Virus record (IMG/VR): IMGVR_UViG_3300011116_000929
Span: 1-23,123 of that record
Reading direction: 5' to 3' (one strand)
From: a virus
DNA: 23,123 nt
Part shown: positions 141 to 23,123 of the stretch, piece by piece
Layout: each line of letters begins with the position of its first letter
How positions within the stretch are numbered: position 1 is the stretch's first letter
Notes under the pieces: model-generated
What the model was told of the DNA's origin: nothing
Database searches by the model: none
Seen by the model: only the letters and a program-made list of their open reading frames with translations
Made by a program: the position numbers and the translations under genes

Positions 141-572
141 CTATTTAGTGATATCTTCTGCATTTAAACCATTCTTAAGAAGTTTTTGAAGTTCTGCGGT
201 AGATCCAACAAAAAGAGCATTTGTGACGTTTTTTGGTCCAGATATTTGTTCCTTTTTTAGTTCTTTTACTTTTTGGTGAATATCCATCAATTTATCTGTA
301 GAATCGGCAACATTTTTAATAAGTTGACCAAAAACTTCATATGCCCTTGGTTGCTGTCCATCTTGTGCTAACTCTAAAAGGCTTGTTGCTGCTTCTTGTC
401 CTTTTTCAATTAAACTATAAAGAGTTCCACGGATATAATCATAATCTAACTCTGAATGATCTTTTTCTTCGATATTTTTTATTTCCTTTTTTGATTCTTT
501 GATGATTTCCTTTGCAGTAATAGTTGCTTTAATATCCAAAGTTTCATCTATCTTGTCAAAATTATTTTTCAT
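141..572 (-). CDS. gp16: Terminase small subunit, gp16-like
   Basis: A 143-aa, mostly helical, charged protein (T4 gp16 is 164 aa). The small terminase binds concatemeric DNA as a ring and hands it to the large terminase gp17 at the portal. The central part (DYDYIRGTLYSLIEKGQEAA, then LLELAQDGQQPRAYEVFGQL) is the recognisable core of marine T4-like gp16 proteins, with a long helix-helix segment at about residues 45-110. The N terminus is acidic and lysine-rich; the C terminus (SGPKNVTNALFVGSTAELQKLL) is the typical short tail. The ATG at 572 overlaps the gp15 TGA as ATGA, which fixes the start and implies translational coupling. The order gp13-gp14-gp15-gp16 is the T4 order and is strong independent support. 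I infer the role from similarity and position; no catalytic residues are expected in this subunit. Confidence 0.87.
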   Translation of the reverse strand: MKNNFDKIDETLDIKATITAKEIIKESKKEIKNIEEKDHSELDYDYIRGTLYSLIEKGQEAATSLLELAQDGQQPRAYEVFGQLIKNVADSTDKLMDIHQKVKELKKEQISGPKNVTNALFVGSTAELQKLLKNGLNAEDITK

Positions 573-1621
573 ACATCAATACCTTTGGTCGGACTATAGG
601 TTTTGCCATCACCATAGTCGTAACGATATTCACTAAATCCAAAATCATCATCTTGTTCAATTAAAGCATCATCAACATTATTGATAATGTTGATATAAGA
701 ATTTAATGTATGTGGTGTTATTATAGTACCATCTTGTCCTCTAAGAACTTTAATTTTATTTCCACTAATTGAAGTAATTAACATTTCCTCATCTTCGATT
801 ATTATATAACTATTTTCAGATAATAAACTGGCATCACTAACGGTAAACTCTGTAATCTTATCATCAATATCTTGTGAAAGTATATTTGTATGATCATTAT
901 CGTAGTCTTTAGTCGCTCTTGGTTCTGCTACATATCTAAGTTGTCTAGAAGCATTTGCTCTATTTGTGTCACTATAATAATCAACTTGTACCTTTTTGAT
1001 TAGACCACTTGTAGAGTCTGGTACTGGTCCAAATAAAAATGTTTTAGCTATAAAATCTAAAGTATGAATTATAATTCTTTTTTCATCATATCCATTTTCA
1101 TAGTTATCTGTAAAGTTTATATTTTCAAGAATCATAGGAACATCTCTCTTCTCACCTATTGCTGATACTAAATCTAATGTTATATTGAATGATGGTTGAA
1201 AGAATGGGAGTATTTGTTCTATAATTTGCAGCGAATCATCATTATATTGAGACATTATCGAAAGTTGTATGCCTAAGTTATAAGGAACAGGCATGAAAAG
1301 TTTATTTGGTATTTTATTATCTGCAGAATTTAGTGCTTTAAATGTTTGCATAGCAGAAACTTTTCTACTGTTGTCATATTTAATTGTTTTTAATTCAAAA
1401 GCCATTCTTGGAAGAGTTATTGCAACTCTTTTTCTTAAATCTGGTTTTTGTTCTAATCTTGCTATAAACTTTTCTGTAGGTCCATATGCAATAGGAACTT
1501 TTATAGTACTATAGTCGGTGGCATCTTGTAGTTTGTGTTTAATATCAATACTATTAAATAAAGTACCAAAAGCAATAATCGTTTTACGAATTATTTCGTG
1601 ATAATAGTATTGTCCTAGCAT
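569..1621 (-). CDS. gp15: Tail sheath stabilizer / tail completion protein, gp15
   Basis: A 350-aa protein (T4 gp15 is 272 aa). In T4, gp15 forms a hexameric ring capping the tail tube and sheath and is the surface that joins the head. Visible matches to T4 gp15 are the N terminus MLGQYYYHEIIRK, KVPIAYGPTEKFIARL (residues 41-56) and EQILPFFQPSFNITLD (135-150). A further match is GPVPDSTSGLIKKVQVDYY (198-216), in the place of the T4 PPVDDAEGLIR stretch. Residues 254-312 form an extra beta module (SYIIIEDEEMLITSI, then VLRGQDGTIITPHT) that I do not see in T4 gp15 and that accounts for much of the extra length. The ATG at 1621 follows a 29-bp gap with AAAAGG upstream. The stop overlaps gp16 as ATGA. 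The identification is strong; the purpose of the extra module is unknown. Confidence 0.92.
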   Translation of the reverse strand: MLGQYYYHEIIRKTIIAFGTLFNSIDIKHKLQDATDYSTIKVPIAYGPTEKFIARLEQKPDLRKRVAITLPRMAFELKTIKYDNSRKVSAMQTFKALNSADNKIPNKLFMPVPYNLGIQLSIMSQYNDDSLQIIEQILPFFQPSFNITLDLVSAIGEKRDVPMILENINFTDNYENGYDEKRIIIHTLDFIAKTFLFGPVPDSTSGLIKKVQVDYYSDTNRANASRQLRYVAEPRATKDYDNDHTNILSQDIDDKITEFTVSDASLLSENSYIIIEDEEMLITSISGNKIKVLRGQDGTIITPHTLNSYINIINNVDDALIEQDDDFGFSEYRYDYGDGKTYSPTKGIDV

Positions 1622-1650: not shown

Positions 1651-3066
1651 TTAATAATCCCCAAAGGGGTTGTCCTGACTAAAATCTATAATTTCATCTG
1701 CTTCATCTTCGATGGAAATATTTTCTGCATATGCATCTGTTTCATCTTGTTTGTCAATTGAATATACAACATAACTTGCATTTGACCCTCCATTTGTTGT
1801 TCCCATACCAACAATAGATTCTCCAGGAGTAAAACTACCATTTACTATTTTGAGTTTAAGAACTCTTGTATCATAGTTCCAATCATTTACATGTGCAGTT
1901 GTCCCGGTAGAAACACCTCTTACAATTTCATTAAATGCATAACTTCCGGTAGAAATTCCAGAAGGAGACGATAACGTAATTGTTGGTATTTGTGTATATC
2001 CAACTCCAGCATTTATATAACGAATTGAAGTCACAATACCAGAAGAGTTGATATATACCTCTGCAGTTGCAGATACACCCCCAGATGGAGCAGTTGATAT
2101 GGAAACAGCAGGAGAAGAAGAATAACCAAATCCAGAATCTGTAATAGCAAATGGACCAATAGAACCACTTTGAAGAACCGCAGTAGCAATTCCACCAGAT
2201 CCACTATTACTTTTAATAGTAACTGTTGGTGCTGTTGTATATCCCATTCCTGGACTTATGATCAAAATTCTATCAATCGAACTACCCATTTGTCCAGAAC
2301 GATGAGTCATTATTGCTACTGCAGTAGCAGTTGATCCTCCCGTTGGTGCTCTGGAAATTGATACAACTGGTACTGTCAAATAACCAGTTCCGTCATTTAC
2401 TAAATCAATTCTTCCTATAGAACTTCCTCCAATTGCAGAAAGATCGGATGCAAGTGAAACAGATGCAGTCGCAGTCCTTGCACTTGCTGAAGTCATTTGT
2501 ATTGTTTGAATATAACCAAAGTCTTGAACAGATTTATCAACTTCTTCAAGTGAAGTGTTAATATCTTCGTCCATTTCATAATCCATTACTTCACATCTTA
2601 ACTCATAAATATACAAATTATTTAATTGATAGAAAGGTTTTTTTCCCTCTACATATTTAATTTCAAATATTGTATTATCTAAAGGAAGGTAAATCAAATC
2701 ACCTTCTTCTGGTCTTGTTGATAACTCAATATTAGGATCACTAGAAAGAAATGGAGTAATAAAGTCTTCATATCTTTCTTTTGATATTGCAAAAGATACC
2801 TCATCTGTAGTTTTTACACCAAATTTCGATAAAATATCACCTTGACCACCAAATCCTTCATAATTGATTAAATACGCTTCAAGTCTAAATGCATCATCAA
2901 ATTTGGATACTGTTATTTCTTTTAATATTGTTTTTTTATTAAAAATTTTTCTAGGTAAATATACAACATCCTGTCCATACATTCTCAATTGTTCATTGAT
3001 CAAATTTTGTACTAATCTTTGTTCACTGGCAGAACCTTGCAGAAAATATGGATTGAGTGGAGACAT
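1651..3066 (-). CDS. gp14: Neck protein gp14, enlarged by beta repeats
   Basis: A 471-aa protein (T4 gp14 is 256 aa). With gp13 it forms the neck that closes the portal of filled heads and accepts the tail. The T4-like core is residues 1-190: QDVVYLPRKIF (33-43), AYLINYEGFGGQGDILSKFG (64-83), EGDLIYLPLDNTIFEI (121-136) and PFYQL (144-148). The C-terminal tail ends DNPFGDY, like the DNDFMD ending of T4. Between core and tail lies an insertion of about 250 residues. It has four GxGYxxxPxVxI repeats near residues 219, 266, 306 and 347, then a GExIVG-type beta segment (about 378-440). The ATG at 3066 is 4 bp from the gp13 stop. The core is confidently gp14; the inserted repeats are shared with gp8 and the giant structural proteins of this window and may project from the neck. 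Confidence 0.9.
   Translation of the reverse strand: MSPLNPYFLQGSASEQRLVQNLINEQLRMYGQDVVYLPRKIFNKKTILKEITVSKFDDAFRLEAYLINYEGFGGQGDILSKFGVKTTDEVSFAISKERYEDFITPFLSSDPNIELSTRPEEGDLIYLPLDNTIFEIKYVEGKKPFYQLNNLYIYELRCEVMDYEMDEDINTSLEEVDKSVQDFGYIQTIQMTSASARTATASVSLASDLSAIGGSSIGRIDLVNDGTGYLTVPVVSISRAPTGGSTATAVAIMTHRSGQMGSSIDRILIISPGMGYTTAPTVTIKSNSGSGGIATAVLQSGSIGPFAITDSGFGYSSSPAVSISTAPSGGVSATAEVYINSSGIVTSIRYINAGVGYTQIPTITLSSPSGISTGSYAFNEIVRGVSTGTTAHVNDWNYDTRVLKLKIVNGSFTPGESIVGMGTTNGGSNASYVVYSIDKQDETDAYAENISIEDEADEIIDFSQDNPFGDY
1963..2412 (-). repeat. Four GxGYxxxPxVxI protein repeats inserted in gp14
   Basis: Residues 219-368 of gp14 carry four diverged repeats with the cores DGTGYLTVPVVSI, PGMGYTTAPTVTI, SGFGYSSSPAVSI and AGVGYTQIPTITL, each followed by a Gly/Ala-rich strand such as GGSTATAVA or GGVSATAEV. 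T4 gp14 has no such segment. The repeats are similar in protein but diverged in DNA, unlike the fresh tandem repeats of the tailspike. Confidence 0.8.
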
Positions 3067-3070
3067 CTTA

Positions 3071-3886
3071 TTAACCTATCATATCCATTGGAGGCAATTC
3101 GTATTCTGTCTTTAACTGGTGCTCACTCTCTTCTATCTCTTTGACTGCATCATCAAAAAGTTGTCTTCCATTTAGTTGAACACCGCCAGGAAGCAATACG
3201 CCCTGGAATTTAATCATATTTTGTCCCCATTGTTTTTTAATTATTGCAGTTAAATATTTTTTAAGCCACCAATCATTGTATACACTTGATGCATCTGCTG
3301 GATCTACTAGTCTGTAACAATCAAATATAAGATAATTATTTGGTCCCATTTGACTCCAATCAATATCTAAATATAATCTATGATTTTTTTTATTAAATCT
3401 AGTTTGAATGTCTGGAGTAATAATTCTACTCAAATCTTCCAAATAGGTTTTGACCATTGCATAATTCAAAATATCAAGTGCTCCATAATAATATAAATCA
3501 TTTAAAAATAATTGATATTTGATATTAAATAAACCACCAGAAATTGTACTGGAGTCTACCTTGAATACATTATTTACACCAATTACATGATCGGGAAGTT
3601 GTATGAAGTTATTAGATTCTGTATAAGAAACAGTAGTAATTCCAACATTGGAAGATGCAGTTGAAGTTGTAACTCCTGTTCTTATAGAATCTAATTGACT
3701 TTGTGATAACTGATGTTTTAAGAATACTTTTTCGATTCCATCATAATGTCTTTCATTGAAATATTGAATTGCATCATCAACTAAATCGTCAATTTGATCA
3801 TCATCTACGTTAATTTCTATTACCGGATATCCAAGTTTTCTTAAACAATAATCTATTAAACCTTGACGTGATGATGGTTGAGCCAT
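3071..3886 (-). CDS. gp13: Neck protein gp13
   Basis: A 271-aa protein (T4 gp13 is 309 aa). It is a head-completion/neck protein that binds the portal after packaging and together with gp14 forms the docking site for the tail. The N terminus SSRQGLIDYCLRKLGYPVIE, followed by NVDDDQIDDLVDDAIQYFNE, is the diagnostic helical block of gp13 in marine T4-like phages. Later segments are a hydrophobic DHVIGVNNVF and a C-terminal helical PGGVQLNGRQLFDDAVKEIE region ending PPMDMIG. The gene is immediately upstream of gp14 (4-bp gap) and 2 bp downstream of a small coiled-coil gene whose last codons supply the ribosome binding site (AGGCAGG, 3896-3902). A late-promoter-like GATAAATA lies at 3908-3915. 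Identification rests on the N-terminal block and the gp13-gp14-gp15-gp16 order. Confidence 0.9.
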   Translation of the reverse strand: MAQPSSRQGLIDYCLRKLGYPVIEINVDDDQIDDLVDDAIQYFNERHYDGIEKVFLKHQLSQSQLDSIRTGVTTSTASSNVGITTVSYTESNNFIQLPDHVIGVNNVFKVDSSTISGGLFNIKYQLFLNDLYYYGALDILNYAMVKTYLEDLSRIITPDIQTRFNKKNHRLYLDIDWSQMGPNNYLIFDCYRLVDPADASSVYNDWWLKKYLTAIIKKQWGQNMIKFQGVLLPGGVQLNGRQLFDDAVKEIEESEHQLKTEYELPPMDMIG

Positions 3887-4130: not shown

Positions 4131-5864
4131 TTAGAATTGACCTCCATCTATAGTGTCAGTCCAAACAGGAACATTTGAAGCATTTGTAGTCAAAATATAA
4201 TTTGAAGTACTTGCATAACCAACTTCTGGAGATGTAGTACTTGTAAGTTTTCCATTTGAATCAAAATATGCAGATCCTCTGGTACTAATGCCAGAAGATG
4301 TAAAATTAAGATATAAAGCTCCAATATCAAGAGTACCCTTAGTTCCTGATACTACACTATTTGTAAATGTAGCATCAGGAATAAAAGTAAGGTAACCAGT
4401 AGAATCTTTGTAACCAAAGAAACCTTTTTTATAATTTGCAATACCAGAACTTGTATTGTATTCAAAAGAAATACCACGGTCAGTATTTGTGTCATAATAA
4501 TGTTGTACTGTTAACTGCGTAGTCGTTGCAATTCCAGAAGTTGTGGTTCCAGAAATTGTAATAACTTTAGAGGTAGAATTATATGCCGTAACAGTTCTAT
4601 CGGCAGTCGTTACTGGAAGTCCATTTGGACCAGAAATAATATCGCCAGTATTGATACCAACAACCGAATCTAATGTAATTGTACTCACACCAGAAGCAAC
4701 AGTTCCCATAATGGTCCTGATGCTTGTAATATCCCCAAGATTGAATATTACTTCATTTGCACTTACAGTGCTTGAATTTACTGTAGTTGTAGTTCCATCT
4801 ACTTGTAAATCACCTTTAACAACAACAGTACCCTGATTGCTTAATCCATCTGGGTATGGGTCAATATAAAGAGTATTTCCTCCACCGGATTTAGTAGAAA
4901 TTACATTCGAACTAATTCCAATATTATCAATTATTGCTCCACCGATATTGGTAAATACACCAGAGTGTGTAATCGATCCAGTAAATGTACTAACTCCGGT
5001 TACAGTAAGTATATCACTACCAGAGTCGCCTAAATTTGTATTTCCTTGTACTATTAGATTACCAGTAAGAGTCTGATTTGCTGTTACGTTTAAACTACCA
5101 CCAATATAAACATTACTTGCAATTCCAACTCCTCCAGATACAACTAAAGCACCAGTTGTAGTTGAACTTGAGGTTGTAGTTCCATTAATTTTTACATCAC
5201 TTGCAAAAGTACCAAATCCTGCCTTAGATACGACAAATTTTGATACTCCACCTACTTGAAGATCAACTAATTTTGAAGAACTGGCAGATTGAGTATCTGT
5301 TATGTTTACTCTCAGACCAGTAAAATCTATTCCAGAGTTATTCCAAGTACTTGTGGCATTTAAAACTGGATAATCTAAAGATAAAGTACCTTGGGTTACT
5401 GATGTAGAACCATTTGTACTATCAACTACAAATCTATTTGTAGATCCGTCAGTAATATTAAAATTCTGTGAAGTACCACCAGTGAATATTAAATCTCCTG
5501 TACCATTTGGATCAATATAAATATCACCATTTGAATTTGTAGATGAAACTGTATTTCCATCAATTGTAATATTATCTACATTCCATTGATCAACTTTACG
5601 ATTTTGATCTAGAACAGGAACAAAACCATTTGCTGGAGTTGTTGGGTTTGCTTGCCCAGAGACTAAACCAGGAGCAATACTTAGAAGATCTGTATAATAT
5701 CTACCACCAACTATTTGTGGATTTGAAGAATTGTCACCAGCAAATAATCTTCCTCCAAAGTTTCCATTGGTTCCTACACCAACTGTAAGACCAAGTTCTC
5801 CAAAATTTAAACTACCTGGAGATACAGTTCCTGTGGATCTTTTGACTCTGATTATGCTTGCCAT
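4131..5864 (-). CDS. Fibre-like virion structural protein (wac position)
   Basis: A 577-aa protein rich in Gly, Ser, Thr, Val and Asn, with the look of a trimeric beta-structured phage fibre. The N terminus MASIIRVKRSTGTVSPGSLN, followed by FGELGLTVG, is the usual attachment segment of this marine-phage family. Short beta repeats follow, such as DGNTVSSTNSNGDIYIDPNG (about 100-120) and LTGNLIVQGNTNLGDSGSD. A third example is VVVKGDLQVDGTTTTVNSST, a pattern also seen in other phage fibres. A distal segment (RGISFEYNTSSGIANYKKGF, then FGYKDSTGYLTFIPDAT) resembles repeats in related fibre proteins. The C terminus is DGGQF. The start overlaps the stop of the 74-aa gene (TAATG) with GGAGGT 8 bp upstream. 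It occupies the place of T4 wac between the baseplate genes and gp13, so it may be a neck whisker or side fibre. The structural role is confident; the location in the virion is not. Confidence 0.8.
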   Translation of the reverse strand: MASIIRVKRSTGTVSPGSLNFGELGLTVGVGTNGNFGGRLFAGDNSSNPQIVGGRYYTDLLSIAPGLVSGQANPTTPANGFVPVLDQNRKVDQWNVDNITIDGNTVSSTNSNGDIYIDPNGTGDLIFTGGTSQNFNITDGSTNRFVVDSTNGSTSVTQGTLSLDYPVLNATSTWNNSGIDFTGLRVNITDTQSASSSKLVDLQVGGVSKFVVSKAGFGTFASDVKINGTTTSSSTTTGALVVSGGVGIASNVYIGGSLNVTANQTLTGNLIVQGNTNLGDSGSDILTVTGVSTFTGSITHSGVFTNIGGAIIDNIGISSNVISTKSGGGNTLYIDPYPDGLSNQGTVVVKGDLQVDGTTTTVNSSTVSANEVIFNLGDITSIRTIMGTVASGVSTITLDSVVGINTGDIISGPNGLPVTTADRTVTAYNSTSKVITISGTTTSGIATTTQLTVQHYYDTNTDRGISFEYNTSSGIANYKKGFFGYKDSTGYLTFIPDATFTNSVVSGTKGTLDIGALYLNFTSSGISTRGSAYFDSNGKLTSTTSPEVGYASTSNYILTTNASNVPVWTDTIDGGQF

Positions 5865-6413: not shown

Positions 6414-9400
6414 GATTTGGATGCAATAACTCTTAGATCTTTAATTCTTGGATATAATGCTTGATTTGATCCAGACATTAAAATTTTAATTTGGAATCCA
6501 TTGAATGGTGGAAGATTTTCTGCATTGAACTCATAACTTCCAAAATCAGAACTGTTTGTGGAAGGAATAACAAATTTGTCCGATCTGCCACTATTATTTT
6601 TTGGATCAATTACAAAACCATTATTATCTAAATTGTCATATCCTGGGAATAACTCAAAAAATTGTTGTTGAAATGTGGAATCAGATCTTAATAATCTATA
6701 CATAACTCTTATGTCGCTAGATGAATCTCTATATGCATCAAATAATACTTTCATACTATCTGATGATTGCTTTAGATTTATTATTTTAGAAACATATATT
6801 GCAGCATGTGGATCATCAAACAGACTATTTACTCTCGGATCCTTGGAATAATCTGTAACTGGATCATTTAATCTAGTCATTACTGTAATTACATTAACTC
6901 TATCGAGATCAATCATTGGAGAAACTTTTGGATCTCCAGTGGAAAATTGGACCTCTAATGTGAAAGATTTATTTCCAGGATAAGCAGAGAGATAAGTTTT
7001 TTCATTTACTTCTGATGCAATAATTCTTGGTGAAGATAATACATGATCGGAAGTTAAAGATATATCTTCAAATCCTTGATCAACATATGAAATCTCATTT
7101 CCACCAACACTACTACCAGAGAATGTTCTAATTCTACAACTTAAAGAACCTGTTGGTGGTATTAGTGTTTGAATGTTTGGTTTTATTATATTAAATGGTA
7201 TGTTTTGTGTTGCTTTTGGTCCTTTAGAATTTGAAGAAGTTGGAAGAATCGTTTGATATGAACCACCAGATTTTGTTTCATTGAAATATAATGCTGGATA
7301 TGCATTCCCATTTCCTGTACTTCTATCCGTTCCATCTGCGGTTGGATCTAATTCAATACTATATTCATCCAAATCTATTGAATAAGAATTGGAGATTGTA
7401 TGTGTTTTGTTAATTCTCTTTAAAGAAACTCCATTTAATTCATATTTTGATACAATTTCATTTGAATTATATGAACTAGGTACAGATCCTCTTGAAATGC
7501 CTGTTAGTGTCTTTGTGGATGTATTTAGTCCAGTGTATCCAATAATTTCATCTTTAATAAGTATGTAACCAGTATTTGCAACACTTACGGAAATATTTTC
7601 AAAATTATTAAAAATACTTACATCAGTCAAAGTCATTGCACTAGTAGAAGATGCACTGTAATCTGCTGCTAATCTTACCGGAGAAATATCGGATTCTATT
7701 CCACTTAAAGATACTTTATTTTGAGTAGAATACATTCCATGATTGTTATGATTTACTTTAAACTTCAATCCACTTGAAATTGAATTTACTGATGATGCAT
7801 TTCCACCGAGAATTGTTGCAATACCTGTAGTTGAAGTGTATTGAATGTACTTAGTAGTATCAGTAGTATCAATTGTTCCTTGAACATTATCAACTATTAA
7901 TGCATTTACTGATGTAATGATGCCAGTATTATTTGGAACTGTCAATAGTAGATTTTTACCTAATCCTCCTGTACTCGTTGAAGTAATACTAAGAACATCG
8001 CCAATCCCGTAACCAATACCAGAAATTGTGACCGTTGCTGCAATTGCAACTCCTCCACTTACAGATAAGTTTGCCTTTGCACCTATACCATTACCAGTTA
8101 TAGTGAGTAGATTTACATTCGAGTATGTTATTGGTCCGTTTGTATATCCAACACCAGAATTAGTTATTGTTAAAGTACCTGTAGATCCTGTACAAATTCC
8201 TCCTAATACTTTGGTTAAATTTGCAGAAAATGTTGAATTATTTTTTTGACTAATATTAACTCCTTTTACTAACTGTACTTGATCTTGATATTTGATACTT
8301 GTTCCAATTCCAACTAAAGTATTATTTGAATACATTTGAATTGGATTTTGTCTTAGAGATACGATTTGATTGTTACCTATACCCAAAGTTGGATTATAAA
8401 ATCTTATATTTGAAGATTTTATATTAAAATCTGCACGATATAAAGTGAATTTCAAATCTTCATATTGACTTGCATCCCAAGTTGCTCCATTTTGCGACTT
8501 AAACAGTGAACCTAAAAGTGGTTGTTGCGAAACAATAACTCGTTCTGATTCCGATTTAGATAAAGTAGATACTTCAGGCTCTCCCATTCTAGAAATCCAA
8601 ACATTATATTGATCAGATGCAGAAAGCAAAACAATTGAATATGCATTTGCAGTTTCAAGATAAACTGGTGATGGGAAAGTAAATGTTGTAGGTATTGATC
8701 CATCTTCAGAGATTGAAACTTGACTTGGTTCCAAAACAACCTCACCAAAAGGAAGAATTGTTTGTGTTGGTAATCCAGTAGTCATTGTTCTCACTTGGAG
8801 AGTTATTGGAATATTATTTGTGGATTTTGATCTGAAGAATATATCACATTTTGTAATAAAAACTCCATTTGCATCAGCAACTTCAAATGATTGCGCCAAT
8901 GGATCTACCCATCTACTATTAGTTACCGTTCTATTCGTAAAAGATGTATCTGCAACGATTCTTGTATCAGTTTCAGTTGTTTGTCTGTTATCTGTTTTTG
9001 CATTTCTTGAGATATCTGCATTTCTTATTCTTAATGTAGTTGCCTCAACATTGTCTAATGTTCCATTTGATGTAAAATTAGATTCTGCAGAACTTTCAGA
9101 AAATCCAGATATTGTGGAATTTACTTCACTTGTAGTTAATTTAATTGTTTTTGTTCCAGTCGTAAATGTTGGCGTCGATGGAACAGTTGGATCCGGAATA
9201 AAGAACGATCCAATAAATGTTCCTGCACTATCACTAATCAACCTTATATCTTTTATGTTACATATTGCGCCACTACTTTGTCCAACAAGACGCATTCCAG
9301 AAACAGCTTGCCCATAAAATCCCGATGATGATTGAATTTCTAAACTTGCAGTATCAATATTCAAAAGTGATGTTGTTGATGAATATTGGGATGATAGTCC

Positions 9401-13900: not shown

Positions 13901-15484
13901 TTAAAACTCCAATATGATTTTAATATCTTCTTTTTGGCTAGAAGATCTGGGTATTGCTGATCTATTATCTATGTATATGATTTCTCCTGACTTTTTATTA
14001 TATTCTGCAGAAGCAATTCCAGCATTAAAAGTCATTCCAAGTTGATATAATCTACTATTAATTGTGGTCGAAACTCCACTAAATCCAGAATCAATTGATA
14101 GTACTGGTGTTCCATTCATAGAAGAACCATATATTGTTAGATTTCCTCCAGATGCAGGACTTGAAGTAAAGTTTATAATATTATAACCAACAGACGTTGT
14201 TGCTAATCCAACTGGTTGGTAATATTTTAGTACTCCAGTAACATTATCCCAAGATGCAACAAATCCAATTGCAGTTGATCCAACTCCGACTGTTTGTGTG
14301 ATTGTAGAATCTACTGCATAAGTTGTGGCAGTTGTTGCAGATCCAGTAAATTTAAGAGCCTTTAGTCCACTTACTACAGATGTATTTAAAAGTTCTACTT
14401 GACTTCCAGTAATTGTTGGATTTTTTATGATACCTATTCTCGCAAAATCATTACCTGAGATTATATCTGGATTAGATTCTAATGTTTCATATCTAGAATA
14501 AATAAGAACTCTATATGCACCAAGTTCTCTGTAAATATCATATCCATGTCCACCTTTTGGTGGAATAATTACATCAAAAGAAGCAAGAGATGAAGTTCCT
14601 ACACCAACATTTGACAATGAAGTAGTAATTCCAGGAGCACCTGGTTCAAATTTAATAGTACCATAAGTATAATTACTTCCACCATCAGTGATATAAACTT
14701 CTGATACTTTTCCAAAAGAATCTGTTGTTACTGTTACCTTTCCTCCACTTCCGTCTCCCAAAATTGGAACATTTGTAAAAGTCGAAGATGTTGGATTATA
14801 ATTTATTCCTCTTTGTTTTATTACAACAGAGTTTATTTTTCCATCTATAGCGTTCTCTTTTGTTGAAATACTTTCACCAGAATTACCCCAATCTTCTGGA
14901 ACTGGAATATATTCAATTGAATCAAATTTCACAATTTCTGATGGTTTAATTGTGTACAAGTATTTCCAAATATATCCATCACCAGAAGTACCTGCAGATC
15001 TTGGTTCTAAATCGATAAAATTTGGTTGATCATATGATGGTCTTCCATTCTGATTTTCTGCATCAGATCCATTTTGCAGACAAATATAAACTCTAAGATC
15101 TTCATTGATTATATAATAATTTGATTCGTAAAGATTTGATTGTTTTGTTATGGGAGTTTTATTGTAAATAGTATAGTCATGCTTATACATTTCATAAGTT
15201 GTCCCTGCAGTCCAGGTTACTTTTCTGACCACTCTACGAATATCATCACTAGTCACTTGCTTCATAGCAATAATCGTATCTTTAATGTCATTTTCTTCTT
15301 TAAAACCGTCTAAAGGAGAAGGTCCGGTATTCCAATTTGCAGATCCTCCAGATCTTGAATCTGTTGAATTTGGTTGTCCAATAAATGTATAGTAACGATT
15401 TAAAGTTTGTCCAATACCAACAATACTTTTTACAAAATTCTCGGCATTTAATATTCTAAACTGATCAGATATAATAGCAGGCAT
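13901..15484 (-). CDS. gp8: Baseplate wedge subunit gp8
   Basis: A 527-aa protein (T4 gp8 is 334 aa). In T4 two gp8 copies per wedge bind gp7, gp10 and gp6 in the outer baseplate. Three features identify it. The N terminus (MPAIISDQFRILNAENFVKS) corresponds to the T4 ITSKFRTEKMLNF region. SGDGYIWKYLYTIKP (about residue 167) parallels T4 GDGYVWEYLFEIPP. The C terminus, YNKKSGEIIYIDNRSAIPRS followed by EDIKIILEF, parallels T4 HSGEMIYMENRPPI and EEINILFTF. The extra length lies in the middle and contains two GGxNY-type repeats (near residues 230 and 268). The ATG at 15484 lies 22 bp after the 1583-aa gene, in an A-rich leader carrying AATAAATA strings. I am very confident of the family. Confidence 0.92.
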   Translation of the reverse strand: MPAIISDQFRILNAENFVKSIVGIGQTLNRYYTFIGQPNSTDSRSGGSANWNTGPSPLDGFKEENDIKDTIIAMKQVTSDDIRRVVRKVTWTAGTTYEMYKHDYTIYNKTPITKQSNLYESNYYIINEDLRVYICLQNGSDAENQNGRPSYDQPNFIDLEPRSAGTSGDGYIWKYLYTIKPSEIVKFDSIEYIPVPEDWGNSGESISTKENAIDGKINSVVIKQRGINYNPTSSTFTNVPILGDGSGGKVTVTTDSFGKVSEVYITDGGSNYTYGTIKFEPGAPGITTSLSNVGVGTSSLASFDVIIPPKGGHGYDIYRELGAYRVLIYSRYETLESNPDIISGNDFARIGIIKNPTITGSQVELLNTSVVSGLKALKFTGSATTATTYAVDSTITQTVGVGSTAIGFVASWDNVTGVLKYYQPVGLATTSVGYNIINFTSSPASGGNLTIYGSSMNGTPVLSIDSGFSGVSTTINSRLYQLGMTFNAGIASAEYNKKSGEIIYIDNRSAIPRSSSQKEDIKIILEF

Positions 15485-15498
15485 TTTAATAGTAGTTT

Positions 15499-15510
15499 TT
15501 ATTTATTTAT
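15499..15510 (-). promoter_or_regulatory. Possible late promoter (AATAAATA tandem) before gp8
   Basis: Just after the stop of the 1583-aa gene the minus strand reads GTAAATAAATAAATAAAAAC, giving overlapping NATAAATA matches about 15-25 bp before the gp8 ATG; another GATAAATA is at 15581-15588. These fit the T4-like late core, but low-complexity A/T tandem sequence matches such a motif easily. Confidence 0.25.
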
Positions 15511-18500
15511 TTACCTTTGAATAATCCTCTAGTTCTGGTTACTTCTGGTGCAGACGATAAACCAACCAATCCATTATTTGTATTTATCGTAAAATTATTT
15601 GGAGATCCAATTCCTCTATTTTGATAATCATAAATTTTACTCCAACTATATCTTCCATAAAAACCATTAGATTTATTTGATGGATTTGCATTAACTATAA
15701 TTTTATCCACATAACCAGGACCAGGTAAAAACTTACAGAATACAGTAACAATACCAACTCCAGATACTTGTATGTTTTCCGCACGATATACGCCATCAAT
15801 AAATGTATTTGCTGTTCCGACAGAAGATATCGAATTATTTGTGGTTGTAATGCCAGTTAAGGCATGTCCACATTGAACATTGCTATCATAGATTACAAAA
15901 TAATCACCAGTCGATATTCCACTGTAAGTAATTCCATAACTATCAAGTGCAGAATATCCAATTCCCAATGTTGTGTTGTCGTAAGATTCTGTTTTTAATC
16001 TGAAAATTAATTGAGGAAGAGTTGTACCAAATCCTAAACTTGTATCTACTCCAACAATTGTGCCAAAATCTCCTTTTGCCTTAATCGAGAAAATTTGTTC
16101 AATGAGTGATGTATCTGGTTCTATTAAAACTTTTGGTGGATTATTTTTGTTGTAACCAAACCCAGGATTTTGAATTGAAATCGAAGTAATAATTCCAGAA
16201 GTTGTACTAGAAACTGCTGTTGCAAGATTATATGTAGAAATAGAATAAATTGAGGTTGCTCCTGTTCCAACTAAAACATATCCATCATTGTTCGAGATAT
16301 ACAGAATATCTTTTATAATATTTAATTGATTTGTTGATCTGTATGTCCAATACTGCAAATTAAAAGAATAATAAAGATTTCCTGTAGAATCTAATAATGT
16401 ATACATCGAATATGTATTATTATAATCAATATTGACAAAATTTCCAGTAATATTTGGTATTATTTGTGCCCAAACGTTCCCAATTGATGATGTTAATATA
16501 TTATTTCCATCACCAACTACCACAAATCTTGATCCATCCCAAATAATTTTATTTAATTTACTAGATGCAATTGTATTTGTATTCCAAAAAGTACCATCCG
16601 TTGATGTAGAAGATGTGCCATCATCTCCAACTATAATTAATTTTGATGCTCCATATGCTATGGATCTAAAATTACTTGAAGTATTTGATGGTATCTTAGT
16701 AAATGCAGTAGAACCAACACCAACAGCAGAGAAAATTGCTCCATTGTATCCAACAGAAATCCACTTATTAATATCTGAAAAATAATCTACACTAGTTAAA
16801 GATGAAATATAAGAACTTTGAGATCTTGTGACAACTCCAAATAGAGATGTTTCTTCATATTTTTTTAATTCAATCCAAGAAGAAATAGTTGTTCCAAAAC
16901 CTACTGTAGTAACTATTTTTCCGTAATCTCCAACTGCAATATAAGTATTTGTGGATGCAAATGAAATAGAGTTAAAAGTTACTGTTTTACTAAATCCTAC
17001 ATTTGATATAAGATTATAATTTTTTGCATCTGTTGTAATAGCGACTACTCCACTTTGTCCAATAGAAACTATTGGACTACCATAAGTGACTGATAATAGA
17101 GAAGTATTAGTAGAAATACCAGAAGATGCAGACCAATTTAAAATTGGATCTTTTAAATGTACAGAAACAGATGAAATTGCAACTCTTGGTGAAGATGTAT
17201 ATGCATATCCAATTCCTCCTGTTGAAATTGCAATAGAAGAAATGGTATTTGCAACAGAAACAATTGCAGTTGCTATTGCAGGATTTGTGTCCCTATTTTC
17301 GATAATTAAAATATTTGAATCTTCTTCTGGCAATGAATCTACTATCGTAAATAGCGGAAATGCATTATTTACGTATATTGAAGTATCTTCAATATTTACA
17401 TTTTTGATTAATTTTGTTGTTGGTCTGATTGTTGAAATTAAACTTGGTCTTGCTTTGGATACTAAAGAACCATTAATGATTCTATCTTGTTTTTGTTTTA
17501 TCCATTTAAGAGGTCTTTGTTTGTTTGTATCTGTATTGATACCTATGCTATCATAATTATAAGTATCAAGTTGATCACTTGAAACAATTTTTTTAACAAT
17601 TCTTTCAAATTGTTCAATATCTAAGTTGTCATAAATATTTTCTCCAATTTGAACACCATCTCCTTCCTTAATTGTTTTAACTGGAGTAATAATTTCAACA
17701 TCCCTCGAAGAACCTTTAAAGAATAAAATACTGCACTTTGATCCAGATTTTGGTGGTTCTGTAAAAACTATTCTGCTACCTGTCAATGTATATGATTCAT
17801 TTGGTATTTGTAAAATATCATTCAGGTATATGAATAAATTATTTTCCAGTTCTATATCAGATCCTGGATTTTTTTTCAAATCTATAATTTCAGTAACTCC
17901 ACTTATAGATTGGGTCAATGTAAATTTAGTTCTTGTTCCATTGAAGTATATTGAAATATCATCAAATGATATAAATTGTCCAACAAAGAAACCACTAAAC
18001 TTATCCGTTAAAGTTTCAGTTACAGTAATACTAAACTTACTAAATGATGTACCTATATTTGGATTTGTGGTTAATCCCACAACAGATAATACGTCACCAA
18101 TTTTATATCCAATTCCAGGATCATCAATAATAAATTGAATGATACTTGATCCAGAACCAACTTGAACAGAAACTTTTGCATTAATTCCATTCCCAGTAGA
18201 ACCATTTGTATAGGCAATACCTAAATTGCTATAAGGTAATGGTAAACTTATAGATACCGAAGGTAATGCCGTATTAGTATATCCAATTCCTCCATTTATA
18301 ATAGACAATGAAGTAATTGTTCCCCCAGCCCCAACAATCGCAGAAATTGAAGCACCAGATCCAACAGTCGATGCAATACTTACAACTGGAGATGACCTAT
18401 AACCGCTTCCAGCACCATTCAACTTTATTGAACTGATTGTTCCGCCCGCAGATACAGAAACAGTTGCTGCAGCGCCAATTAGAGGTTGATAACCAAATCC

Positions 18501-20258
18501 AGTTGTAATTGCAACATTTACAATTTTTCCTGCATTTGGGGCACCAGTTAAAAATTTAATTGTATTTGCATTTGGAGTATCAATTGTATAATCAACTTCT
18601 GGAGTTTGGAAAATATTATTAATTAAAATGAATGGTTTGTTGTCTATATTTGTGCTACTATTTGTATTTGTAAAGATTCCAACAACTGGTTGATTATTTG
18701 AAGACAATACAAATTCTGTAGCTGCAATACCGGTAAATTGATTTGATATATCATCTAAAATGATATTTTTATCAGTTGGATTATATGCATCCAATTGTCT
18801 AGAAAATACTCTTCCAGAAAAAGACGAATTTGCAATTAACTGTGGATCAGTTGATGCAATAGAAGGACCATAAGGAGGTGTTGAAAAATATATTACATCA
18901 TTAACAATATTAAAATCTCCTTTCATTATCGATGTAGCTGAACCAACAGTATGTGCAGTAGCAACTGATCCCATAAATGCTCTGGTTACACTTAATGCAT
19001 TAGTAGAACCAACGCCAACAGAGTTAACTTTTAAATATTCATTATCAATTTGAAGAATATCATTATTGAAAATAGAACTAATTCCAGAAGAGATGAATAT
19101 AGAGGTAGATCCAATTCCAATTGAAGTAGAAAGTCCAATTGTAATATTTTTTCTATGTATAGGACTTTGAATAATATTATCAATTGAAATTATTACATTT
19201 TCATTTGGATTTTTAAAACTAAATGATTGTGATCCAGAACCAAATGAATCCAAATTAAATGGATTATTTAAAGTTGTAGAAAAACCAGAAACTTGAAAAT
19301 TATTTGCATCTATCTTACGAACAAATATATTTGATGGAAGTTTATTTGTTCCTAATAATGTAGGAGAAAGATAGATATTATCTGCAGGAGTTGATCCTCC
19401 AACATTAGAACCAGAAATTATAATTTGATCTGTTGATGTATATCCTGTTCCTCCATTTACAATTCTTACTTCAGAAATATCTTTATTTGCGTCTCTTGTT
19501 ACATTAAATATTGCACCAGTTCCAATTCCACTAGAAGTAGACGCAATACTTACATATGTTGTATTTGCAGTTCCAGCTCTGGTTGTAGAAACTCTTGATA
19601 TTGTAAAATATAAATTATTTGTGGGAGTTGCCCCACCCATATAAGTTCCAGCAATTGAAATTTGTTGCCCAACGGAATAACCACGTCCTCCATCAATTAA
19701 CTGAACTGATGTTCCAATTGGAACACCTGTTCCTGAATTATAAGTAATTAAAACTTGAAATAATGCTCCAGTACCAATGCCGGTATTTACATTTCCTGGA
19801 ATTGGATTTCCAAATCCAAAATATTGCGAGAAAACTCCAGGAGAAGTCGTGCTACTAATACCGGTAACAATGCCAGAATATGGAACATAATTATTATATC
19901 CATTTTCGTATATTGCGCTTCCAATTCCAGCACCAACTCTCATTAATATATCAAGAGTTCCCGTTGCATAAGATGTTGTTGCAATGCCGATTCTTGTCTC
20001 AGTTTCTTGATTTAACGGATAATAACCAAATCCTGGAGATAAAACTACAATTCTGGAAATTGCACCACCAGAAATTACTGGATAAAAAATTCCCTCTGTG
20101 ATTGGTGTGACTGTATTTTTTATTGTTATTTTTGGTGGATCAGTCGAAGCATATCCGGATCCACCATTTACTACGTCTATAGAGGTTACTGAATAGTTTA
20201 CAGTTTCTATATTTGGACTTAATATTGCACCAGATCCCGGAACTACTCTTGTTGACAT
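15507..20258 (-). CDS. Large baseplate structural protein in gp7 position with beta-propeller-like domain
   Basis: A 1583-aa protein immediately upstream of gp8, where T4 has gp7 (1032 aa). It has about ten GGxGYxxxPxVxI-type repeats (near residues 32, 76, 190, 269, 587, 617, 656, 715, 1014 and 1366). Three modules of the form (I/L)N(N/D)I(F/L)QxPxxxYT occur (near 359, 546 and 812), and an ID-NEYLKV...VTRAFMGS module lies at 380-445. Residues 880-970 (KQRPLKWIKQKQDRIINGSL, then RPTTKLI) are a conserved cyanophage block. Residues 1035-1350 look like a beta-propeller: WISVGYNGAIF, LIIVGDDGTSSTSTDGTFW, FVVVGDGNNILTSSIGNVW. The C terminus ends APEVTRTRGLFKGK. T4 gp7 also contains a propeller, so a gp7 analogue is a reasonable inference, but I see no direct sequence match to gp7. 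The ATG at 20258 has TTTAGG upstream. Confidence 0.78.
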   Translation of the reverse strand: MSTRVVPGSGAILSPNIETVNYSVTSIDVVNGGSGYASTDPPKITIKNTVTPITEGIFYPVISGGAISRIVVLSPGFGYYPLNQETETRIGIATTSYATGTLDILMRVGAGIGSAIYENGYNNYVPYSGIVTGISSTTSPGVFSQYFGFGNPIPGNVNTGIGTGALFQVLITYNSGTGVPIGTSVQLIDGGRGYSVGQQISIAGTYMGGATPTNNLYFTISRVSTTRAGTANTTYVSIASTSSGIGTGAIFNVTRDANKDISEVRIVNGGTGYTSTDQIIISGSNVGGSTPADNIYLSPTLLGTNKLPSNIFVRKIDANNFQVSGFSTTLNNPFNLDSFGSGSQSFSFKNPNENVIISIDNIIQSPIHRKNITIGLSTSIGIGSTSIFISSGISSIFNNDILQIDNEYLKVNSVGVGSTNALSVTRAFMGSVATAHTVGSATSIMKGDFNIVNDVIYFSTPPYGPSIASTDPQLIANSSFSGRVFSRQLDAYNPTDKNIILDDISNQFTGIAATEFVLSSNNQPVVGIFTNTNSSTNIDNKPFILINNIFQTPEVDYTIDTPNANTIKFLTGAPNAGKIVNVAITTGFGYQPLIGAAATVSVSAGGTISSIKLNGAGSGYRSSPVVSIASTVGSGASISAIVGAGGTITSLSIINGGIGYTNTALPSVSISLPLPYSNLGIAYTNGSTGNGINAKVSVQVGSGSSIIQFIIDDPGIGYKIGDVLSVVGLTTNPNIGTSFSKFSITVTETLTDKFSGFFVGQFISFDDISIYFNGTRTKFTLTQSISGVTEIIDLKKNPGSDIELENNLFIYLNDILQIPNESYTLTGSRIVFTEPPKSGSKCSILFFKGSSRDVEIITPVKTIKEGDGVQIGENIYDNLDIEQFERIVKKIVSSDQLDTYNYDSIGINTDTNKQRPLKWIKQKQDRIINGSLVSKARPSLISTIRPTTKLIKNVNIEDTSIYVNNAFPLFTIVDSLPEEDSNILIIENRDTNPAIATAIVSVANTISSIAISTGGIGYAYTSSPRVAISSVSVHLKDPILNWSASSGISTNTSLLSVTYGSPIVSIGQSGVVAITTDAKNYNLISNVGFSKTVTFNSISFASTNTYIAVGDYGKIVTTVGFGTTISSWIELKKYEETSLFGVVTRSQSSYISSLTSVDYFSDINKWISVGYNGAIFSAVGVGSTAFTKIPSNTSSNFRSIAYGASKLIIVGDDGTSSTSTDGTFWNTNTIASSKLNKIIWDGSRFVVVGDGNNILTSSIGNVWAQIIPNITGNFVNIDYNNTYSMYTLLDSTGNLYYSFNLQYWTYRSTNQLNIIKDILYISNNDGYVLVGTGATSIYSISTYNLATAVSSTTSGIITSISIQNPGFGYNKNNPPKVLIEPDTSLIEQIFSIKAKGDFGTIVGVDTSLGFGTTLPQLIFRLKTESYDNTTLGIGYSALDSYGITYSGISTGDYFVIYDSNVQCGHALTGITTTNNSISSVGTANTFIDGVYRAENIQVSGVGIVTVFCKFLPGPGYVDKIIVNANPSNKSNGFYGRYSWSKIYDYQNRGIGSPNNFTINTNNGLVGLSSAPEVTRTRGLFKGK

Positions 20259-20435: not shown

Positions 20436-23123
20436 TTAATTTCCAGAAAGATGAGATAAAATAACTGAGAATCTGTGATAACCAGTTGGTATGTTTCCAC
20501 CACCAATCATAGTTATTATAATTCTAGCATTTGTAGAAGTAGTATTAGTATCACTTAATCGGCATATAACACGACTGTCACTATTACACTGTATAATTCC
20601 AAATAATGGTGCTACTCGGAATACGCCACTAGGAATTGGCATATCATAAGTTTGTTCTGTAGATCCATTAAGATTTAGTACAATAGATTCTAAAAATTGT
20701 TGTTTAAATATTTGTATATATTCTGAAGATTGTTTTAATATCAATCCCTGCCCACAATGCCAAATATGATTATCTCCTACTTTAAGATATTTGGCACCAC
20801 TCTTTATCCATATTCCGTATTGTTCAAATCCTTTTATATAATTAGCTGCAATTAAACTGGACCGCTCGTGTGGTGTATTCGTTAGGCTGTAACCATCAAT
20901 AACTATTCCGTAATTTGCACTGCCTACATTTATAATACTATTACCGGTAATGACATATTCGCCACTATTTCCTAGCAACTCTATACCAATAGTATCAGGA
21001 CCGCCATTAGCATATATTAAATTATTACTAATGTTAGATTGTACCATTCCTTTTAGATATACGCAACATACGTTACAATTTAAGTGAGAATTACTTAGAT
21101 TCATTCCAGACTCTGCTCCATCATCATTACAAAAAATACCATAGTTTGCTGCTACAAATCCACAATTTGCAACATATAAACCTTCAAAAAAATCATTTAT
21201 TTCTATTGATTTATTTCCATAAATAAAGTCTGTATTTGTAATTTGAATTGTCGAGAATGAATTAATATGAGCGCCACCATCATCTACATGTATTCCAGTT
21301 CCAGAATTTGTATTATCTAATCTAAAATTGCAATTTGAAATTTTTACATCACCTTGCCGTACTATGTGTAACCATTTTTTGAATCCACGCTCCATGTTTG
21401 CTTGTCCTTGAAATTCTACCTCACTTATTACAATGGTTCTTTGTGGACGACCTTCAAAACTATTTCCTATAATTTTAATGCCAGAAGAATTTTCGGAAGG
21501 GAATACTCTTGTTTCAAAGGTCAATCCTCTCATAGAAAATCCATTAGATCCTGTAGCACCAGAAAGCCACCATTCTCCTGGAAGATTAATTTCAATACCA
21601 TTACCGTTTACAATATTTAATCTTATTATGGATACCCCAACTCCATCTCCTAAAAACGATATACTTTTATCTCCACTCAAAGTAGTAGAAATAGTGCTAG
21701 TAATAAGATATATTCCTGCCGGAAAATGAACACATTTACCAGTACTAGTAGCGTAATTTACAGCAGATTGTATTGATGCTGTATCATCAGAAGATCCATT
21801 CCCAGCGGCACCAAAGTCCTTAACACTTACAATATCATTTAATTTTGATTGTATTGATCTTGGGGTAGCATTAGCTCCGTTTTGTGTATAATTACTAGAT
21901 AATGTAATATAAGAACTATTATCTATACTACCATCTGCTTTTAAAAATTGACTTGATGTTCCGCTAGTCTTAACAAAACTTGTAGCATTTATAGTACCAG
22001 AAGTAAGATTGGAAGGATTTAGATTAGTTAAGTTTGCGCCAGAAGCAGTAGGTAGTGTAGCAGGAAATCTACCATCTGGTATTGTTCCAGAAGTAAGATT
22101 AGTAGCATTTAAATTAGTTAAGTTTGCAGCATTTAGATTAGTTAAGTTTGCGCCCGAAACAGCAGGTAATGTAGCAGGAAATCTACCATCTGGTATTGTT
22201 CCAGAAGTAAGATTAGTAGCATTTAAATTAGTTAAGTTTGCGCCAGAAGCAGTAGGTAGTATAGCAGGAAGTCTACCATCTGGTATTGTTCCAGAAGTAA
22301 GATTAGTAGCATTTAAATTACTTAAGTTTGCGCCCGAAACAGCAGGTAATGTAGCAGGAAATCTACCATCTGGTATTGTTCCAGAAGTAAGATTAGTAGC
22401 ATTTAAATTAGTTAAGTTTGCGCCAGAAGCAGTAGGTAGTGTAGCAGGAAGTCTACCATCTGGTATTGTTCCAGAAGTAAGATTAGTAGCATTTAAATTA
22501 GTTAAACTTTCGCCATTACCGCTAAATTTTGTAGAAGTTAATGTACCAGTAGATGGTATAAATGATAATCTAGTTGAAGATACTGATAGAGATTGAACTG
22601 TTCCGGATGTATTAGAAACTGCTGTTAGATATGATGGAGAACTTGAAGAAGTATCATCATTAATTGTAATATTAGTATTTGCAGTCGAGTTTACCGTAAC
22701 CTGTCCTGTGGACCCAGATAGGGTAATATTAGTTCCAGCAACAATAGAAGTTACAATGCCCGTCAAGTTCGCACCATTACCACTAAAACTTGATGATGTT
22801 AAAATACCAGTGACTCTTGCATTACCTACTACAAAAAATGCAGATGTTGGATTAGTGGTTCCAATACCAATACTAGATGCTGTTAATACTCCAACAGTAG
22901 AAATACCAGAAACTGATAATGAAGTAACTGATGTAATACCACCTATAACACTTGTTGCTATACCTGCACTAGAAGCATAAGTTGCTATACCTGCATTAGA
23001 AGCATAAGTTGCTATACCTGCACTAGAAGCATAAGTTGCTATACCTGCACTAGAAGCATAAGTTGCTATACCTGCACTAGAAGCATAAGTTGCTATACCT
23101 GCACTAGAAGCATAAGTTGCTAT
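20436..23123 (-). CDS. Tail fibre/tailspike with pectate-lyase-like beta-helix (5' end missing)
   Basis: The frame is open from the window edge, so 895 residues are visible and the true start is upstream; a TTG at 22766 is internal. In order: residues 1-57, a tandem IATYASSAG repeat; 58-205, marine-phage fibre stalk (GIGTTNPTSAFFVVGNARVT, then GNGANLTGIVTSIVAGTNIT); 206-379, a 30-residue repeat containing NATNLTSGTIPDGR. Residues 431-800 are a right-handed beta-helix opened by SVKDFGAAGNGSSDDTASIQ, the hallmark of the pectate lyase 3 superfamily found in phage tailspikes. Coil turns include KISNCNFRLDN, IQITNTDFIYGN and YVITGNSIINVG. Residues 800-895 form a C-terminal beta domain ending SHLSGN. 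The likely role is host surface binding, possibly with polysaccharide cleavage. I cannot assign catalytic residues. It is followed by a 177-bp gap. Confidence 0.85.
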   Translation of the reverse strand: MATYASSAGIATYASSAGIATYASSAGIATYASSAGIATYASNAGIATYASSAGIATSVIGGITSVTSLSVSGISTVGVLTASSIGIGTTNPTSAFFVVGNARVTGILTSSSFSGNGANLTGIVTSIVAGTNITLSGSTGQVTVNSTANTNITINDDTSSSSPSYLTAVSNTSGTVQSLSVSSTRLSFIPSTGTLTSTKFSGNGESLTNLNATNLTSGTIPDGRLPATLPTASGANLTNLNATNLTSGTIPDGRFPATLPAVSGANLSNLNATNLTSGTIPDGRLPAILPTASGANLTNLNATNLTSGTIPDGRFPATLPAVSGANLTNLNAANLTNLNATNLTSGTIPDGRFPATLPTASGANLTNLNPSNLTSGTINATSFVKTSGTSSQFLKADGSIDNSSYITLSSNYTQNGANATPRSIQSKLNDIVSVKDFGAAGNGSSDDTASIQSAVNYATSTGKCVHFPAGIYLITSTISTTLSGDKSISFLGDGVGVSIIRLNIVNGNGIEINLPGEWWLSGATGSNGFSMRGLTFETRVFPSENSSGIKIIGNSFEGRPQRTIVISEVEFQGQANMERGFKKWLHIVRQGDVKISNCNFRLDNTNSGTGIHVDDGGAHINSFSTIQITNTDFIYGNKSIEINDFFEGLYVANCGFVAANYGIFCNDDGAESGMNLSNSHLNCNVCCVYLKGMVQSNISNNLIYANGGPDTIGIELLGNSGEYVITGNSIINVGSANYGIVIDGYSLTNTPHERSSLIAANYIKGFEQYGIWIKSGAKYLKVGDNHIWHCGQGLILKQSSEYIQIFKQQFLESIVLNLNGSTEQTYDMPIPSGVFRVAPLFGIIQCNSDSRVICRLSDTNTTSTNARIIITMIGGGNIPTGYHRFSVILSHLSGN
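21987..22508 (-). repeat. 90-bp tandem repeats in the tailspike stalk
   Basis: There are five full 90-bp units (22419-22508, 22329-22418, 22239-22328, 22149-22238, 22035-22124) and a partial sixth (21987-22034). A 24-bp insert (22125-22148) duplicates the NLTNLNA start of a unit. Each unit encodes 30 residues with the core LTSGTIPDGR. In transcription order the variable ends run RLPATLPTASGA, RFPATLPAVSGA, RLPAILPTASGA, RFPATLPAVSGA, RFPATLPTASGA: two alternating types followed by a hybrid. DNA identity between units is very high, so expansion by unequal recombination or slippage is recent. Confidence 0.93.
22954..23123 (-). repeat. 27-bp tandem repeats encoding IATYASSAG
   Basis: There are six full 27-bp copies (starting 22954, 22981, 23008, 23035, 23062 and 23089) plus 8 bp of a seventh that runs off the window. 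Five copies are identical; the copy at 22981-23007 has one base change (Ser to Asn, IATYASNAG). Because 27 is a multiple of three, copy-number change keeps the frame and alters only stalk length. There are no spacers, so this is not a CRISPR array. Confidence 0.95.

Follow-up and report, generated by a model that had tools for sequence, protein, structure and literature searches.

What a head-closure protein of the phage neck gains from carrying a long array of small beta repeats, and where on the virion such repeats would sit, is the question raised by the gp14 gene described here. The window analysed is the whole of a 23,123-nt IMG/VR virus record (IMGVR_UViG_3300011116_000929), whose minus strand encodes T4-like virion proteins. 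Its features are listed in Table 1.

Table 1. Coordinates of gp14, its parts and other virion genes in the window (aa, residues of the protein named)
Feature	Position	Strand	Evidence
gp14 neck / head-closure protein, 471 aa	1651..3066	-	PF11649, 3.1e-27; PHROG 460, 1.6e-124
gp14 T4-like conserved core, aa 1-183	2518..3066	-	PDB T4 gp14, 2e-20; AF2 model compared with 9lu6
gp14 small beta-barrel-like module, N-terminal half, aa 184-212	2431..2517	-	Weak VIA match; kept in repeat-less gp14
gp14 GxGY repeat 1, aa 217-251	2314..2418	-	HMM
gp14 GxGY repeat 2, aa 264-297	2176..2277	-	HMM
gp14 GxGY repeat 3, aa 304-335	2062..2157	-	HMM
gp14 GxGY repeat 4, aa 345-379	1930..2034	-	HMM
gp14 barrel-like module, C-terminal half (GE..G..SGT.A.V..W motif), aa 383-443	1738..1920	-	Conserved in repeat-less gp14; AF2 strands
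gp14 C-terminal tail conserved in Kyanoviridae (DFSQDNPFG), aa 444-471	1654..1737	-	Alignment of 95 sequences
gp13 head-tail adaptor	3071..3886	-	PHROG 211; alignment
gp15 tail sheath stabiliser	569..1621	-	PF16724, 4e-78; alignment
gp7-position protein, GxGY at aa 24, 183, 261, 608, 648, 1006, 1357	15507..20258	-	HMM; PHROG 2885
gp8 degenerate GxGY copy, aa 260-298	14591..14707	-	HMM
2494-aa protein GxGY copy, aa 1905-1948	8051..8182	-	HMM

Identity and layout of gp14

By sequence, fold and gene order, window gp14 belongs with the ordinary neck (head-closure) proteins of T4 type. Residues 4-183 match the Pfam family T4_neck-protein (PF11649, E 3e-27), the protein belongs to PHROG 460 (head closure Hc2, E 1.6e-124), and its gene is flanked by those of gp13 and gp15, an order that is also found in P-SSM2, T4 and others. 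The structure of gp14 was predicted as a monomer with AlphaFold2 (AF2) on 95 relatives (mean pLDDT 76.5, pTM 0.50), and the core of the model was matched to T4 gp14 (9lu6_M) with a VIA Z of 12.0 over 127 aligned residues (rmsd 3.8). The likeness to T4 gp14 therefore lies in core sequence, fold and gp13-gp14-gp15 order, and the role in the neck is assigned by homology. T4 gp14 differs in that it has neither the barrel-like module nor the GxGY array, a short stretch (residues 178-256) binding gp15 instead. In T4 the protein is a hexamer, placed between the dodecamer of gp13 and gp15.

A reading made from the letters of the window (hereafter the sequence-only reading) had described gp14 as nearly doubled in size, with about 250 residues, including four repeats, between core and tail. 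Both points were borne out: the protein is 1.84 times the length of T4 gp14 (471 vs 256 aa), and the residues beyond the T4 protein are found at about aa 184-443 (~260 residues), with four repeats detected by HMM. Core and tail had been considered intact, which holds for the core (PF11649, T4 fold), whereas the tail is a Kyanoviridae feature. Its 'DF.E.NPFG' motif is kept across Kyanoviridae gp14, with D461, N466, P467 and F468 invariant in 95/95 sequences, but no BLAST alignment of the T4 gp14 tail to the window gp14 tail was obtained (the alignment covers aa 4-148 only). Searches with gp14 returned no match in NCBIfam and nothing outside the core in Pfam.

The extra length is also due in part to a small beta-barrel-like module that surrounds the array. 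In the AF2 model, aa 186-441 form a confident all-beta region, and the model range 184..439 weakly matches domain III of aIF2gamma, an EF-Tu-type barrel (VIA Z 5.3-5.7, about 70 residues). The array would thus occupy one loop of a small barrel, a placement with which the sequence agrees, both barrel-like halves being retained in repeat-less Syn30-type gp14 (308 aa). The array predicted alone reached a mean pLDDT of 84.9 and a pTM of 0.78. Foldseek comparison of the array with the PDB gave no significant match (best E 0.46), and its best VIA match, a T4 tail-sheath fragment (3fo8; Z 5.5, 76 aligned, 17% identity), is treated as a lead only.

The GxGY repeat in gp14 and in other virion proteins

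The array spans aa 217-379 and is made up of four beta repeats of ~40 aa each, in which GxGY starts at aa 226, 273, 312 and 354; the interval 1963-2412, to which the repeats had earlier been assigned, corresponds to about aa 219-368. The motif G.GY(2-5)P.[VI].[IL] occurs 4 times in gp14 and 0.0000 times per shuffled copy (500 shuffles). A seed HMM found exactly four repeats in gp14, with domain E from 2e-16 to 2e-18, and 2 weak matches in 200 composition-matched shuffled copies. A chance origin of the repeat signal in gp14 was ruled out by these shuffles.

Comparison with the other virion genes supports one repeat family common to the neck and baseplate proteins of this virus, and the copy numbers given by the sequence-only reading were revised. 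About ten copies had been counted in the gp7-position protein, where 7 are found by HMM and about 10 by eye. For gp8, about two had been proposed; two degenerate copies are present (GINY at aa 226, GSNY at aa 269), just one of them HMM-supported, and the two literal GxGY strings of this protein are not repeats. Of two copies in the 2494-aa protein, one is HMM-supported and the other is partial.

Elsewhere, most PHROGs in which the repeat occurs are made up of virion proteins (of the tail, baseplate or connector, or otherwise structural). Among predicted viral structures, those that contain the repeat come largely from cyanophages and uncultured phages; a baseplate wedge subunit is one of them, and DNA-stabilising proteins of the P22 gp10 type are others. 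A tblastn search of phages with the consensus repeat gave no match, which the low-complexity filter may explain. Sequence searches yielded no solved relative of the repeat, matches to BurrH being sums of sub-threshold scores.

Two database labels were also noted. The 2409-aa DUF4815/VrlC-position protein of metaG-MbCM1 (L560 10957-18186; NC_019443.1 80956-88185) is labelled 'gp14 neck protein', and the gp7-position protein of HTVC008M (L414 3436-6486; NC_020484.1) is labelled 'head closure Hc2'; in each of the two genomes the true gp14 gene is at another place. The GxGY repeats that these proteins share are probably behind such wrong labels, by which gp7- and DUF4815-type proteins are called gp14 or Hc2.

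Age, copy number and constraint of the array

Relatives were taken as the best 80 per query by similarity, so that the number of sequences in an architecture class is no measure of its frequency; two queries with the core only, from which the 6-repeat forms came, were added to lessen similarity bias. The insert was present in 79/79 of the nearest complete relatives (gp14 of 458-479 aa), and by this comparison it is an old, fixed feature within the clade of the window. Across the Kyanoviridae sampled, gp14 length ranged from 308 to 767 aa and was near-constant within the other sampled clades. An insertion of constant length in all gp14 had been named as the observation that would speak against the sequence-only reading, and such constancy was found in the window's clade and not family-wide.

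The gp14 classes comprised forms with 0 repeats (308 aa; Syn30 and, by length, S-SM1), 2 repeats (359-393 aa), 3-4 repeats (442-446 aa; P-HM1), 4 repeats (435-489 aa; window and P-SSM2 clades), 6 repeats (559-665 aa), 7-8 repeats (644-657 aa; S-8S56 and S-CAM9) and a LamG domain plus 5 repeats (760-767 aa; S-SSM7). Zero repeats were found in gp14 of T4, a Kuttervirus and a Vibrio ackermannvirus (213-256 aa), and the gp14 of pelagiphage HTVC008M (290 aa) is without GxGY. On a core-only tree (87 rows), 7 architecture changes were counted vs about 36 with shuffled labels. Within the 2-repeat clade of this tree lies the repeat-less Syn30 type; this position means that the array was lost there and is dispensable.

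The best-scoring counterparts of repeats 1-4 of window gp14 are repeats 1-4 in the P-SSM2 clade and repeats 2-5 in the S-SSM7 clade (less clearly so for repeat 3 in the latter), and positional counterparts in distant clades generally outscore the gp7 repeats encoded by the window itself. Given this position-by-position correspondence, the array is ancestral and inherited by position. One small module had been thought to have spread through the neck and baseplate proteins, a view that survives for an ancient event only: recent spread within this genome is rejected by the positional orthology, and if the module did pass from protein to protein, it would have done so before the sampled clades parted. 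As a separate observation, comparison by eye showed a similar S(N/D)..SIK motif after the extra repeats of four 6-repeat gp14s (L448, L454, L467, L482); since the cores of these proteins look like those of different clades, array segments may have been exchanged between lineages.

Copy numbers from 0 to 8, loss of the array at least once and the scattering of the same repeat over many virion proteins are also what would be expected of a near-neutral modular expansion, in which a tolerant loop gathers beta modules without a dedicated function. This explanation is considered unlikely. Compared with the nearest relative, array dN amounts to about one third of dS, which indicates purifying selection, and position-specific conservation between deep clades and the rarity of architecture changes (7 for the 87 sequences of the core tree) also argue against it. 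Indels are rare within the array, and its dN is ~2x that of the core at similar pS. These rates suggest an array that is constrained yet freer than the core, as expected of an exposed domain.

Probable exposure and possible function at the neck

Larger domains were found in the same stretch of gp14 in relatives. In the S-SSM7 clade, a concanavalin-like LamG domain (PF13385), lectin-like, lies between the first and second repeats (29.0 bits in L338 vs the Pfam cut-off of 27.6). In three metagenomic contigs (L244, L246 and L247, found again as L522, L514 and L532), a ~360-aa FG-GAP beta-propeller, taken to be seven-bladed, is located just before repeat 1 of a 2-repeat gp14. The propeller was matched to PF14312 (FG-GAP_2) in L244 (E 5e-77, 7 stretches) and L246 (E 2e-69, 6 stretches) and was assigned from sequence likeness in L247; L244 agrees with the propeller-less L200 at 86% before the insert and 79% after, and the gp13-gp14-gp15 order is intact in the propeller contigs. 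These two are the only modules of adhesion type, and they occur in just one clade and in three contigs, respectively. Both are too large for burial in the neck ring, and therefore the insert site most likely faces outward. The earlier suggestion of a surface decoration is strengthened by these substitutions.

In T4, the stretch 178-256 of gp14 is disordered until the tail joins and contacts gp15 in the virion (PMC12270204). Because the insert lies in this gp15-binding arm, between core and tail, the array is placed outside the head-tail joint. The C-terminal arm that clamps gp15 would thus carry an additional beta domain that faces outward, in which a loop of the small barrel-like module holds the four-GxGY array, and the array would ring the outside of the joint. 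With a gp14 hexamer as in T4, six arrays and about 24 repeats would be present per virion. Since the AF2 model is a monomer, the direction in which the array projects is something that we infer; structure and literature searches found no high-resolution or assembled Kyanoviridae neck.

We put at about one in two the probability that the arm of gp14 bears an exposed, interchangeable beta decoration that acts as a weak adhesin, most likely for host-surface or environmental glycans. A weak adhesin leads because two of the modules are of adhesion type and because a neck carbohydrate-binding module of lactococcal 936 phages was shown to bind the host (PMC6669499). Neither catalytic nor sugar-binding residues were identified. 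By mass spectrometry, gp14 was found in the S-SM1 virion (PMC3037559); the S-SM1 protein has the repeat-less-type length of 308 aa, and the detection is thus not of an array-bearing gp14.

The near-fixed array length within a clade also fits a structural role, and the main rival of the weak-adhesin reading is that the array is a brace, which together with the gp14 tail and a module of gp15 tightens the head-tail joint while the substituted domains merely ride along. The insert does lie in the arm that binds gp15 in T4, array length is almost constant within clades with rare indels, and gp15 has an extra module of its own (~70 aa, about aa 246-318, window 668-886), parts of which match tail-fibre PHROGs. 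That module is present in S-SSM7, S-SCSM2R, Syn30, P-HM1 and S-8S56 and missing from P-SSM2 and the S-RIM phages, and so does not track repeat number: P-SSM2 (4) and S-RIM (2) are without it, and Syn30 (0) has it. A brace would also have to be reconciled with the repeat-less gp14 of cultured Syn30 (and by length S-SM1), nested in a repeat-bearing clade, and with the 360-aa propeller tolerated in the same stretch. We regard it as doubtful, although a stronger candidate than near-neutral expansion.

Docking of whiskers (fibritin) or tail fibres by the array, a contact that the sequence-only reading had also raised, is very improbable. The array would be near the collar, and a fibre-like 577-aa protein occupies the position of T4 wac, but this protein gave no Pfam match. 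The T4 partner of fibritin is domain III of gp13, not gp14 (PMC12270204), and cyanophage gp13 has by alignment 29-30 residues (29 in the window) where T4 domain III has 50, so that much of the fibritin-binding region is missing.

The 577-aa protein (window 4131-5864; PHROG 15769) was judged fibre-like by eye. In S-8S56 (L085 1881-2999) and S-CAM9 (L089 1880-3001), whose gp14 has 7-8 repeats, gp13 carries its own ~100-aa insert. The gene just upstream of gp13 encodes a 3403-aa protein with an Mtd_N domain in S-SCSM2R and a 1832-aa protein with a subtilase domain (PF00082, 5.6e-28) in P-HM1 (L086 13671-19169). At window 20436-23123, a 5'-open 895-aa ORF with tandem IATYASSAG and NLTSGTIPDGR repeats is fibre- or tailspike-like and, after the repeats, has a short match far below cut-off to the rhamnogalacturonidase family NF049898.

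Small beta modules of the Ig-like type are found on many unrelated phage virion proteins, where they are held to be weak carbohydrate adhesins. The GxGY repeats differ in being ~40 aa long and without a Pfam match, and the array reaches a VIA Z of only 2-3 to Ig chains. The neck passage structure proteins of 936 phages (PMC6669499) resemble gp14 in combining a constant part with interchangeable accessory domains; they belong to an unrelated siphophage group, and their carbohydrate-binding domains are at fibre ends rather than inserted in a head-closure ring protein. Collar gp13 of Agrobacterium phage Milano (PMC10491603) is likewise a beta-rich domain that decorates the neck and resembles glycan-interacting proteins, but it is a separate collar protein, not a ring protein, and a role in stability was proposed for it. 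Decorated neck proteins are thus already known as a kind, and the LamG and propeller substitutions at the gp14 site are new here.

Marine T4-like cyanophages are abundant, and the neck is usually treated as conserved plumbing. It is possible, and somewhat more tentative than the adhesin reading of gp14 itself, that marine T4-like phages have in their head-closure ring a modular platform for adhesins, with GxGY, LamG and propeller sites for hosts or particles that are separate from the tail fibres. The natural series of 0, 2, 4 and 8 repeats, LamG and propeller, partly in cultured phages, makes the question testable. If the modules of gp14 are exchangeable and exposed, the neck would be a site of surface diversification, and this could affect adsorption, particle attachment or stability.
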